The translations under genes were made by a program, and so were the position numbers. The notes beneath the pieces are model-generated. The model was given only the letters and a program-made list of their open reading frames with translations, was not told the DNA's origin and ran no database searches. A stretch of DNA of 64,000 bases from Phytoamicus setariae (GTDB taxonomy: Bacteria; Pseudomonadota; Alphaproteobacteria; Rhizobiales; Rhizobiaceae), in contig NZ_JAEQNC010000003.1 of the NCBI RefSeq assembly GCF_016722925.1, positions 310,001-374,000 of the forward strand. Reading direction: 5' to 3'. This document shows positions 28,600 through 33,490 of the stretch, in pieces. The stretch's first letter is position 1, and every line of letters begins with the position of its first letter.

Positions 28600-29060
28600 C
28601 TTGCCCAAAGTCGCACGTGCCTGTGGGTGTCCGCCGACCCTCTAATTGGTGAGGAATTCGGTACGGTACCTGGACCTAACCGCTCCAGTCGCTACCCCGG
28701 CCTTCCGGGAAATGCGAGGACATCTTGAAGCAACGACGGTGCGGGCCTTTCTGGTGTCTGCCGGCTTTCCAACAGCCGGGGTTACTGAAGAGGCACACCT
28801 TCATTGCCGGAAGTGCGGTTGGGACATCCCTCCAATCCAAGGCAGACAATCTGAACATATGCCGTTTCGCGGCGTTTGTTCTACAGCCATGTGGCATTTC
28901 GTAATGAACCGGGGTCTCCACCGCCTGGTTTCTGAGCGCAATTCGTCACTCGTTTTTGTCCTCCGGAATTTCCGGAGCAATGCCATCTGTCGATGCGGTC
29001 GTTCCGGTTGAGTCCGGTTTCCGCAAACGCAGGATCTATCTCTGGATTTGGAAGGACGAT
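28600..29060 (+). ncRNA. Long leader of ornithine decarboxylase, probable speF RNA region
   Basis: The 587 bases between lysR and the decarboxylase gene contain no convincing gene but several strong hairpins: GGTACGGTACC near 28660, CCCGG/CCGGG near 28696-28709, GCCGGC..GCCGG near 28760-28779, and the palindrome CTCCGGAATTTCCGGAG at 28961-28977. An RNA motif named speF was described upstream of ornithine decarboxylase genes in Alphaproteobacteria, and position and length agree. I could not align it to the covariance model, so exact limits are uncertain. A weak 121-codon open frame (28646-29011) runs through it and could instead hold a regulatory leader peptide. Confidence 0.5.
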
Positions 29061-30281: not shown

Positions 30282-30881
30282 ATGGCCGCTCTCCTTGACT
30301 CTGTGCGCGCATTCTTTGCGCCAAAAAATGACGATGCCTTTCTGATCGACCGGGAGAACCCTTCCGACGTCGTCGCACGCGAGTGCCTGCTCGACCGCGC
30401 GATGGGCGTGGGCCGCAGAAAAAAGTCTTCGGAAGCGCTTCGCCGCAATCGTGTACCAGCCGAAGGGCTGGCCCTGGTCGCCCGCGACACATCCGGCCAC
30501 GTGATCGGCACGGTGCGTCTCTGGCATATTGACGCCGGCATCACGCCTGAAGGCAATGCCGTGCCGGCACTGCTGCTCGGCCCGCTTGCAGTCGACGCCG
30601 ACCATGCCGGCAAAGGCATCGGCGGCGCCCTGATGCGCGCGGCAATCCTCGAGGCTCGCAAGCACGGCCATGGCGCCATCCTGCTGGTCGGCGATGCACC
30701 CTACTACGAGCGCTTCGGCTTCACGACCGAGAAGACCGCCACCCTGGTCATGCCCGGCCCCTCCGCACGCGAACGTTTCCTGGCGCTGGAGCTCAGGGAT
30801 GGCTGGCTTGAAGGTGCTGCCGGCGTGCTCACAGCGTCCGGCGCGAAGATGTTGGAAGCGCCGCTGAAGAAGGCGGCGTAA
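30282..30881 (+). CDS. GNAT-family N-acetyltransferase
   Basis: A 199-residue protein with a GNAT domain. The acetyl-CoA binding motif A is LLLGPLAVDADHAGKGIGGALMRAAI, and motif B is ILLVGDAPYYERFGFTTEKT. GGGAGG precedes the ATG. This sequence type (YhbS-like) frequently follows ornithine decarboxylase in rhizobia, as here with an 82-base gap, so a polyamine or an amino-acid-derived amine is a possible acceptor; that is inference. Confidence 0.82.
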   Translation: MAALLDSVRAFFAPKNDDAFLIDRENPSDVVARECLLDRAMGVGRRKKSSEALRRNRVPAEGLALVARDTSGHVIGTVRLWHIDAGITPEGNAVPALLLGPLAVDADHAGKGIGGALMRAAILEARKHGHGAILLVGDAPYYERFGFTTEKTATLVMPGPSARERFLALELRDGWLEGAAGVLTASGAKMLEAPLKKAA

Positions 30882-31061
30882 GGGCGCCTATGGGATCCAT
30901 TGCGTAAATGCCGTTGGCATTATGTGGAATTTAGTCAGGGTCAGCTCTGCCCATCAGCGGACTTCGTGTCTGATGGTGTGCTACTGCACTGGTCAGCGAC
31001 AAAGCGCTATTCAGCCAGCGCTCTAGACTGGACCTGTAGCGATAACGGTTTTTTCTAGCTA

Positions 31062-32447
31062 TCAGATTGAAGCCGGCAGGACATCGATCGCTGGCACATC
31101 GATCGCCGCCAACATGGCGTTCCGCCGGGCCAGCGTTTCGCGATATTCTTGGGCCTCGATATCCTTGAAGAATGGGGCGCCAGGCGCAAGGCGCTTGACG
31201 GCGGCCTCGACGTCATCAATCGATGCGCGGAAGAACTCCTTCCGATAGTTCTGAGCGTTGATGCGGGTCTTTTCAAATTCGTTGTGCAACGATCGCTCAA
31301 GCGTCGGCGCGTCATCACTGTAGATGATAGTGTGAGTATCGAATATGAACGGCACGCTGGCGTCTCCGAGCTCCCGAACACGATCAGCAGGATCGAGGCG
31401 CCGCGTCAGACCGATCTTGACCACCTCCTCACCGAAAGAGCCCACGTTCGAAATGATGTAGACGTAACCGGACCGAGTTTTTTCAGCCATCGCCTGGGCG
31501 CGCTCAACCTTTGCATGGGCATCGGCAAGGTCTCGCTCCAGCATCCGGATCTTCTCGTTGTAAGCCTCCATCTGAGTGCCTGCCGCACGGCTGGCCTCGG
31601 TCTTGGCCTTTTCCAGCAACCGTTTATACTTGTCTTCTTCCTCCTCAGCGCGCTCCATGTCCCGAATGAACTTTTGCTCCTCCCTCGCAGCGCGCGCCAT
31701 TTCTGCCCGCTCCTCGCGCTCGGCTTTGAGCTTCTCCCGGTATTCGTGGGTGAGGAAGAGCTCTTGGAGCTTCAACTTCAGATAGTTGTCGGTGATGATA
31801 ACTTCATTTGTTGCGTTGAGATTGTCGATCTGTTGCCGAGCGGTGACTATACGCTTTTCCATCGCGTTAGCATTGTTCCATCGCACGTTCGCTACCGCCG
31901 CGTCACACTCGTTGTTGAAAGCGCGCAAAGTGAGCTTTACATTGCGATTGGTGAAAGTCTGCCCCTTGGCTTTACTACCACTGACAGTCCATTCCGTTTT
32001 GCAGACCGCGGCTGTTTTGTTGGTAATCAAGCGCTTTTGAGCATCTCGAACGCTCGCGATGGCGTTTTTGTACTGCTCACTGTCGGAGTAGTCGAAATGC
32101 GGTTCGTACAAACCCATTTCCGCGAAGGCGATCTTCTCATCAAAGACAGCAACCTCTTTTGCCAAGCGATTGTAGACCGTCATCTTCTCAGCATATGATG
32201 CCCGCAGCTTCTCGATCTCAGTTTCTTTGGTGCTAACAACCTCCTGCAGCCGTTTGACCTCCGCCTCTTGGTCGGTAATCGGCTTAAAGCGTTCTTCCAG
32301 GGCATTGGCCCTTGCAGATTGGTCTTGGAGTTGGACTTCGCCTAGCCTGCGTGCAGACCGCTGATGGAAAGCAAGCGCCGTGGCTACGATAGCCCACAAC
32401 GGCACGCCCAAAACCAAGATGAACGCAACAACCTGACCCGTGGTCAT
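31062..32447 (-). CDS. Membrane-anchored DUF4041 / GIY-YIG (T5orf172) nuclease, SNIPE-like phage defence
   Basis: A 461-residue protein with four parts. An N-terminal membrane helix at about residues 5-27 (VVAFILVLGVPLWAIVATAL) precedes a coiled coil at about 33-100. A DUF4041 domain follows at about 100-245 (GLYEPHFDYSDSEQYKNAI, NKTAAVCKTEWTVSGSKAKG, RAFNNECDAAVANVRWNN). After a second, charged coiled coil comes a GIY-YIG-like T5orf172 domain at 327-410, with Gly327-Tyr-Val-Tyr, Lys344-Ile-Gly, Arg349/Arg350, Glu384 and KEFFRAS. This is the architecture of SNIPE, an inner-membrane nuclease reported to cut phage DNA during injection. ATG 32447 has GAGGG upstream; the longer frame to 32504 lacks support. 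By eye the gene is less GC-rich than its neighbours, stands alone and has unconserved flanks, consistent with recent acquisition. Phage protection by this copy is inferred. Confidence 0.85.
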   Translation of the reverse strand: MTTGQVVAFILVLGVPLWAIVATALAFHQRSARRLGEVQLQDQSARANALEERFKPITDQEAEVKRLQEVVSTKETEIEKLRASYAEKMTVYNRLAKEVAVFDEKIAFAEMGLYEPHFDYSDSEQYKNAIASVRDAQKRLITNKTAAVCKTEWTVSGSKAKGQTFTNRNVKLTLRAFNNECDAAVANVRWNNANAMEKRIVTARQQIDNLNATNEVIITDNYLKLKLQELFLTHEYREKLKAEREERAEMARAAREEQKFIRDMERAEEEEDKYKRLLEKAKTEASRAAGTQMEAYNEKIRMLERDLADAHAKVERAQAMAEKTRSGYVYIISNVGSFGEEVVKIGLTRRLDPADRVRELGDASVPFIFDTHTIIYSDDAPTLERSLHNEFEKTRINAQNYRKEFFRASIDDVEAAVKRLAPGAPFFKDIEAQEYRETLARRNAMLAAIDVPAIDVLPASI

Positions 32448-32647
32448 AGATTTCCCTCGATAGATCCCCAAAGTCGAGAGTATCGTATATGGTGTCTTTT
32501 GCAAGTATGCGACCGATGGGAGAAACGGCTATAAAGATCAAAGCAAGATGTCAGCTAGAGCCAAAAGCCGACGCTAGGTACCTGCTCCAGAATCCCGGAG
32601 ATCCCCTCTCGCTCGTGGACAACGGCCGAAAGTCGATCTTTACGAAA

Positions 32648-33490
32648 TCAGAACGTCGGTGGCGTGTTGATCCAGATCAGCACCGTCTCGCCGGCAAAGC
32701 TGTTGCGCCAGGAATGTGGCCGCTTGCTCTCGAAGTAGAATGAATCCCCCACACCAAGCTCGAAGAACTGATCGCCATCGAGGATAATCTCGATGGCGCC
32801 CGCCAAAACATGGAGGAACTCCTCGCCTTCATGCTGGTAGGCGCCTTCGCTCGATGCACCCGGCGCCAGCACGAAGCGGTGGCACTCCATCTGGTTCTTG
32901 CCCTCGGAGAGAATTTGCACGGCCACACCCGAGGAGGTCGCCGGCCAATTGGACCATGCGCCGTTGCGGATCAGCGACTCGCCTGCATGCCGATCCTCCT
33001 GACCGCTGAGCACGGCGAGCGTCGTGCCGAAAGAGGCGACGAGTTCGTGCAGCGCCTTGAACGACAAGCCTTGCGAGGTGCGCTCAAAAGTCGAGAGCAT
33101 CGAGACGGGAATGCCGGTCTCAAGCGAAACCTTCTCCAGCGTCTTGCCGGCCTCACGACGCAGGTAGCGAAGCTTGCGACCAATATCGGAATTGGGCTGC
33201 GATTTTGCGCGTGGCTTCGTCTGCGCACGGCGCGGCTGTTCCCGGCCAAGGCCCTCGCGAATGGCCGCTGGGTTCAACCCCTTGCCATTCCGCAACCAGC
33301 TGATTTCCTTGAGCTGTTCGATATGACTCTGTTCGTAGAGTCGCTGGCCGGACTCCGTCCGGACCGGCTCGATCAGACCCTGGCTTTCCCACAGCCGGAG
33401 CGTCGAGGCCGACACGCCGGCCATCCGGGCTGCCTCTGCGATCTTGAATCTGATCGGACCTTTCATCTCAGCGTCATGGCCGGAATGCAT
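32648..33490 (-). CDS. MerR + XRE + cupin transcriptional regulator
   Basis: A 280-residue regulator with three modules. A MerR-type HTH occupies residues 13-75 (FKIAEAARMAGVSASTLRLW, LIEPVRTESGQRLYEQSHIE). An XRE-type HTH is at about 100-160 (GRKLRYLRREAGKTLEKVSL, GIPVSMLSTFERTSQGLSFK). A C-terminal cupin domain lies at about 205-275 (HEGEEFLHVLAGAIEIILDG, LGVGDSFYFESKRPHSWRN). XRE plus cupin is the architecture of PuuR, the repressor of putrescine catabolism; the added MerR domain is unusual. It is divergent from gabT-gabD, 152 bases apart, and is their obvious candidate regulator. A first ATG at 33490 or Met9 are both possible starts. Confidence 0.85.
   Translation of the reverse strand: MHSGHDAEMKGPIRFKIAEAARMAGVSASTLRLWESQGLIEPVRTESGQRLYEQSHIEQLKEISWLRNGKGLNPAAIREGLGREQPRRAQTKPRAKSQPNSDIGRKLRYLRREAGKTLEKVSLETGIPVSMLSTFERTSQGLSFKALHELVASFGTTLAVLSGQEDRHAGESLIRNGAWSNWPATSSGVAVQILSEGKNQMECHRFVLAPGASSEGAYQHEGEEFLHVLAGAIEIILDGDQFFELGVGDSFYFESKRPHSWRNSFAGETVLIWINTPPTF

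Follow-up and report, generated by a model that had tools for sequence, protein, structure and literature searches.

The 461-amino acid protein encoded at 31062-32447 on the minus strand of the window, the 64-kb stretch of DNA analyzed here, is by its sequence a homolog of SNIPE, the published name of PD-lambda-1 (PMC13190303), and the gene is very probably an acquired phage-defense gene, with the defensive role taken from the E. coli homolog. Horizontal acquisition of a single-gene SNIPE phage defense is strongly favored because PADLOC and Pfam profiles match the protein, it shares identity with the PD-lambda-1 protein of phage PhiR26_1, residue E384 is invariant, a hydrophobic N-terminal segment is present, the gene is patchily distributed, and its GC3 is low. 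The reading also draws on homologs in plasmid, phage and viral-contig records and on the lack of a recurrent partner gene beside them. The discovery of PD-lambda-1 dates from 2022 (PMC9519451), and the mechanism of SNIPE in E. coli was described in 2026 (PMC13190303).

The open reading frame begins with an ATG at 32447, preceded six bases upstream by a Shine-Dalgarno-like GAGGG (32454-32458, minus strand) read from the sequence. Pfam confirms the two domains that the earlier note had placed in this frame, with DUF4041 (PF13250, E 1.9e-19) covering 56 of 56 profile positions at residues 171-226 (31770-31937, minus strand) and the T5orf172/GIY-YIG nuclease domain (PF10544, E 2e-17) at residues 327-420 (31188-31469, minus strand). 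Two PADLOC PD-Lambda-1 models match with E values of 2.5e-162 and 5.5e-159, the first of which, PDLC03976, aligns profile positions 72-476 of 491 with protein residues 45-445; the PADLOC runner-up, PDC-S57 (E 1.7e-17), covers the nuclease end only. PHROG 1847, a family of unknown function, also matches the protein (E 1.5e-132), and an NCBIfam profile search gave no match. In a profile search of the whole genome, this protein is the sole match to DUF4041.

The PD-lambda-1-annotated protein of Escherichia phage PhiR26_1 (L033) carries nine of nine checked residues (E223, N250, L253, W257, E264, K305, I308, T319, and E414) at the positions named in PMC13190303, and its sequence is therefore taken as that of the published E. 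coli SNIPE or one very close to it. The window protein is 47% identical to it (187/401 aligned positions, residues 51-443), with identities divided unevenly between the nuclease region (68/115), the DUF4041 region (39/76), and the N-terminal region (16/58), the last of which is counted against the defense reading. Replacement of E414 abolishes defense in E. coli SNIPE (PMC13190303), and the alignment pairs E414 with E384 of the window protein (31296-31298, minus strand) and R380 with R350, an arginine in the nuclease core (31398-31400, minus strand). Both residues, correctly numbered in the earlier note, are invariant in 31/31 aligned rows (the window protein and 30 relatives). Family membership follows from the PADLOC match, the PhiR26_1 identity and the E414/E384 pairing, so that family, domain layout and catalytic residue, as had been claimed, are borne out by Pfam, PADLOC, and the PhiR26_1 alignment. 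At positions linked to the tape measure protein, E223 is kept as E197, W257 is replaced by F231, and N250 by K224. Short peptide patterns, which detect close relatives only, located 37 related loci in genome contigs and five in viral contigs, and alignment A1 contains the window protein with 27 of the former and three of the latter. L053 and L060 were missed by the motif filter, L069 and L076-L082 are broken, short, or without the motif, and of the viral loci L086 duplicates L062 and L087 is cut. Alignment A2 has 28 rows, omitting L048, L054, and L074 of A1.

The AlphaFold2 model of the full protein, built from 31 sequences (mean pLDDT 76.8, pTM 0.45), opens with a long helix (residues 3-53) and continues with a mostly helical DUF4041 region, helices at 220-287 and 291-325, and finally a mixed domain. 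Modeled by itself, the C-terminal domain has low confidence (mean pLDDT 67) and the order strand-strand-helix-strand-helix. The best eight rows of a VIA-align comparison with residues 318-461 are chains of the GIY-YIG nucleases Slx1 and HIGLE, superposing weakly (Z 4.2-4.8, rmsd 4.3-5.2, 83-94 residues) and lending the predicted domain weak but consistent support as GIY-YIG. Foldseek against the PDB returned nothing at E <= 0.001 for either the full model or the nuclease domain, the VIA-align list for the full model is filled by long helices, and no solved chain close in sequence to the window protein was found. This faint resemblance of the modeled nuclease domain to PDB entries is counted against the defense reading. 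Nine matches to predicted viral structures pass 0.001 in Foldseek, the best of them (1.1e-17, 375 columns, most of the length) being a siphovirus protein labeled helicase, and several T5orf172 proteins are among them at 4e-4 to 1e-3.

The N-terminal membrane helix proposed earlier corresponds to a hydrophobic segment at residues 6-24 (32376-32432, minus strand), lying inside the modeled helix and giving a best 19-residue mean of 2.5, starting at residue 6, by hydropathy calculated from the sequence only. Basic residues follow this segment, which suggests that the N terminus would be outside and the rest of the protein in the cytoplasm, the topology measured for E. coli SNIPE (PMC13190303). A transmembrane segment is predicted in 66% of published SNIPE homologs. 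Among 46 relatives examined, 37 were measured (nine rows were dropped, the motif not being found), and 36 of the 37 have, ahead of the core and in frame with it, a 19-residue hydrophobic segment (mean >= 2.1); the one that falls short, L081 (0.16), has an interrupted frame. The anchor itself is poorly conserved. Six of the seven nearest relatives, at 75-77% core identity, share four to nine identities with the window protein in the first 35 residues, in short local matches, and the viral-contig protein L083 is identical at 13/34. In six close-relative pairs (L073 is used in two of the six), amino acid-changing substitutions are 5.3-7.5 times as frequent over the first 45 codons as in the core, in line with the low conservation of the SNIPE N-terminal region stated in section 9 of PMC13190303. 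There is no sign of positive selection on the anchor, as dN is below dS in five of six pairs, those with estimable dS. Swapping of anchors between cores is likewise disfavored by the N-terminal pair scores, the seven best of which come from pairs with 89-100% core identity and fit fast divergence; some pairs at about 71-78% core identity also score on the N terminus (e.g. L050/L056), and some exchange may have occurred. A speculative proposal, judged rather unlikely, is that the alphaproteobacterial anchor is a host- or phage-fitted adapter that would dock in each lineage on a different inner-membrane protein used by local siphoviruses for DNA entry. Were this so, the anchors could be used as baits for new phage entry proteins in rhizobia.

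The gene stands alone, as the earlier note described, between non-coding flanks of 180 bp (30882-31061) and 200 bp (32448-32647). On the left is a GNAT acetyltransferase gene (30282-30881, plus strand) and on the right a regulator gene (32648-33490, minus strand), both assigned by Pfam and bordering the site of the presumed insertion. The regulator carries another HTH and a cupin in addition to its MerR domain, and is divergent from gabT. It adjoins gabT and an aldehyde dehydrogenase gene, and the surrounding genes are metabolic. The SNIPE gene has a GC content of 0.548 and a GC3 of 0.665, below all 12 other window genes compared (mean 0.760, sd 0.024, minimum 0.721), which agrees with the lower GC noticed before. 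Nor did mobility genes appear, Pfam giving no transposase or integrase among 17 other window ORFs (seven scanned at a cut-off of 1e-3 and 10 at 1e-10). The 64-kb window has no tRNA, and direct repeats at the insertion boundaries are only short and chance-looking. A search of the SNIPE gene's strand with the E. coli-type consensus alone revealed no promoter-like site, a result counted against the defense reading. Upstream of the GNAT gene, Rfam places the alphaproteobacterial sRNA ar45 at 28603-28750 (plus strand) and a speF leader at 28759-28908 (plus strand), both just upstream of an ornithine/lysine-type decarboxylase gene at 29048.

Homologs are scattered across the family. At least 17 of 394 Rhizobiaceae genomes, that of the window included, have a match at E <= 0.001, a lower bound with four candidates scored per genome; 12 of the 17 span at least 369 query residues, G265, G318, and G181 are partial, and G215 and G070 lie near the threshold. 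In the core tree the window protein has no well-supported partners and falls outside the Rhizobiaceae group. The Planctomycetaceae MAG record L061 falls among alphaproteobacterial rows. The core of L051, a record titled Bacillus subtilis SK6B4, is 98% identical to that of Pseudochrobactrum asaccharolyticum L054, and the Bacillus label is therefore probably an error. The legend of Extended Data Fig. 9 in PMC13190303 names alphaproteobacteria among the holders of 474 homologs, and an alphaproteobacterial SNIPE branch is thus already known in outline. Among the papers listed for SNIPE, DUF4041, PD-lambda-1, and rhizobial defense, none deals with a rhizobial SNIPE, where other wording may escape such a search, and those consulted gave no phage test of any alphaproteobacterial SNIPE, which is counted against the defense reading. 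PMC12429752, which catalogs PADLOC elements of Sinorhizobium prophages, does not use the term PD-lambda.

A SNIPE locus common to Rhizobium tropici, leucaenae, lusitanum, and freirei records (L037, L076, L077, L079, and L080) is interrupted by insertion sequences, and L078, L081, and L082 have SNIPE frames that are short or cut. Such broken relatives, together with the missing promoter-like site, would be expected if the window gene were an intact-looking but silent acquired copy, either not expressed or mismatched to local phages. This is considered very improbable against an open frame of 461 amino acids with a plausible Shine-Dalgarno sequence and a retained catalytic glutamate.

Beyond the genome contigs, a plasmid collection contains 185 matching records, 113 of them from Klebsiella and 145 spanning 80% or more of the query, and a phage collection 37, of which 13 reach that coverage, and in L083 endolysin and DNA methyltransferase genes beside the SNIPE gene (7 of 33 ORFs scanned) indicate a phage context. 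The window's genome has one match to the tape-measure family PF06791 (66.8 bits, L088, G000:C2:220451-220939, a 656-amino acid frame), a family also matched in 3/14 control genomes, and none to the tape-measure family PF10145. The L088 frame may belong to a prophage or a tail-like module in another part of the genome. An entry-exclusion nuclease, directed mainly at conjugating DNA, gene transfer agents, or superinfecting temperate phages in place of lytic siphoviruses, might profit plasmids and phages that exclude rivals, and the tape-measure match in the window's genome is also listed in its favor, yet it is still less probable than a silent copy. E. coli SNIPE hit siphoviruses during injection and spared an induced prophage (PMC13190303), and no observation on the window gene points to plasmid or gene-transfer-agent DNA in particular.

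Acquisition of a defense gene is further addressed by the junction in other species. The SNIPE gene was not found in any of the 8 congeneric genomes compared, a set with one genome per species in which 4/8 fall short of 90% completeness or exceed 5% contamination, and the check for patchy presence at the locus suggested earlier thus gives 0/8. Universal conservation at the site with no effect on phage infection, or the lack of DUF4041, T5orf172, or a nuclease core, had been named as grounds for abandoning the proposal; both domains and the core are present, and the gene was found in none of the 8 congeners. The regulator and gabT are present in 8/8 congeners, with the regulator ortholog next to gabT, and the GNAT gene and regulator keep the same order in 7/8. 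The gap between them varies from 0.04 to 6 kb (about 0.04 kb in G004, 0.5-0.6 kb in G003, G005, and G008, 1.7-1.9 kb in G002 and G006, and 6 kb in G001), and G007 has no GNAT ortholog within 10 kb on that side of the regulator. The G004 junction is close to an empty site. A small ORF different from SNIPE is common to the GNAT-MerR junctions of G003 (L042) and G008 (L043); by eye, the junction of G001 (L040) contains a transporter-like gene with a sensor kinase and response regulator, and a TetR-like gene is seen in both G001 (L040) and G002 (L039). The lack of a match in congeners and the differing content of the junction are explained most simply if the gene was inserted in this lineage at a site of variable content, loss in the other species being a less simple alternative. 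The intergenic flanks are too diverged from the congeners to place the ends of the insertion, with only chance-like matches on the GNAT side and only short matches of 20-33 bases next to the regulator gene in 5/6 congeners compared. Contigs of 4.3 and 5.9 Mb carry the junction in two relatives, where it is therefore probably chromosomal; the contig of the window is 513 kb. A membrane nuclease with a housekeeping role in the genus and no connection to phage would suit the metabolic surroundings of the gene, but it is the least probable alternative, as the gene was found in none of the 8 congeners and is scattered across the family.

The lambda-type partner ManYZ seems unavailable in this host, as neither PF03609 (ManY type) nor PF03613 (ManZ type) was found in the window's genome, which is 99.9% complete; each family was found in 3/14 control genomes, E. 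coli included. None of 10 other homolog-bearing genomes of the family reaches the cut-off for either, G015 having a sub-threshold PF03609 match. As these host proteins help against lambda, the lack of a match to them is counted against the defense reading. The association with ManYZ was seen for lambda defense, and section 8 of PMC13190303 describes other siphoviruses targeted without ManYZ dependence, so that this association is not a defining feature of the SNIPE family. For the same reason the missing ManYZ is compatible with function and does not establish that there is a new partner, and a partner may be unnecessary. The suggestion that a rhizobial version relies on a different membrane partner is supported in part, insofar as the ManY and ManZ families were not found, but no other partner emerged. 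Within the virulent collection of section 8 of PMC13190303 most siphoviruses were weakly targeted and a subset more robustly, and myoviruses and podoviruses were not susceptible to SNIPE. A conserved or obligate partner gene is also not apparent, since no family recurs beside SNIPE across independent loci. Clustering of predicted proteins of at least 90 amino acids at E <= 1e-8 around 48 loci (the window, five annotated-record loci, and 42 related loci, with unequal flanks) showed that, the SNIPE gene itself apart, no family turned up at three loci or more, save for the interrupted Rhizobium tropici-type locus and two small groups of four and three loci. A thermonuclease-like partner fails in the same way, occurring near SNIPE in two loci (L034; L083, phrog_452) and not in three. 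These thermonuclease- or endonuclease-family genes lie downstream of SNIPE at 9353-10009 in L034 and 6876-7310 in L083, and the latter has a signal-peptide-like start by eye.

Membrane location, DNA cutting, contact with the tape measure, and defense are all projected onto the window protein from the E. coli homolog. In the resulting scheme for an acquired SNIPE defense, DUF4041 would bind DNA and contact the tape measure protein of injecting long-tailed (siphovirus-type) phages, the GIY-YIG domain would then cut the entering DNA with E384 as a catalytic residue, and the anchor would hold the nuclease off the chromosome. In a host apparently without ManYZ, recognition would proceed via the tape measure protein or some other membrane protein. 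An intact homolog in such a rhizobium offers a natural test of tape-measure recognition alone and of the role of the variable anchor. It also gives the family, some of whose soil-dwelling members are used with legumes, a further candidate gene for phage resistance.

Slx1 and HIGLE weakly resemble the predicted fold of residues 318-461 of the window protein (Z below 5), and are DNA repair or structure-specific nucleases without a membrane anchor or DUF4041. Closer in sequence are the alphaproteobacterial DUF4041 proteins of a Sinorhizobium fredii plasmid (WP_104840497.1, L034) and Mycoplana azooxidifex (L047), with the same layout and 75-77% core identity, whereas their first 35 residues share only four identities with the window protein in a local match of 7-9 residues and their loci have no neighbor gene family in common with the window locus. 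The closest known system is SNIPE/PD-lambda-1 itself, likewise a single gene with an N-terminal membrane helix, long helices, DUF4041, and a C-terminal GIY-YIG domain, whose catalytic glutamate is kept in the window protein. The differences are an anchor that is barely similar, a host without detected ManYZ families, F231 for W257 and K224 for N250 on the face linked to tape measure binding, and a gene that stands alone on a bacterial contig, whereas the compared E. coli-type protein is encoded in a lambda-like phage genome. The window gene is a rhizobial relative of a known defense and not a new kind of system.
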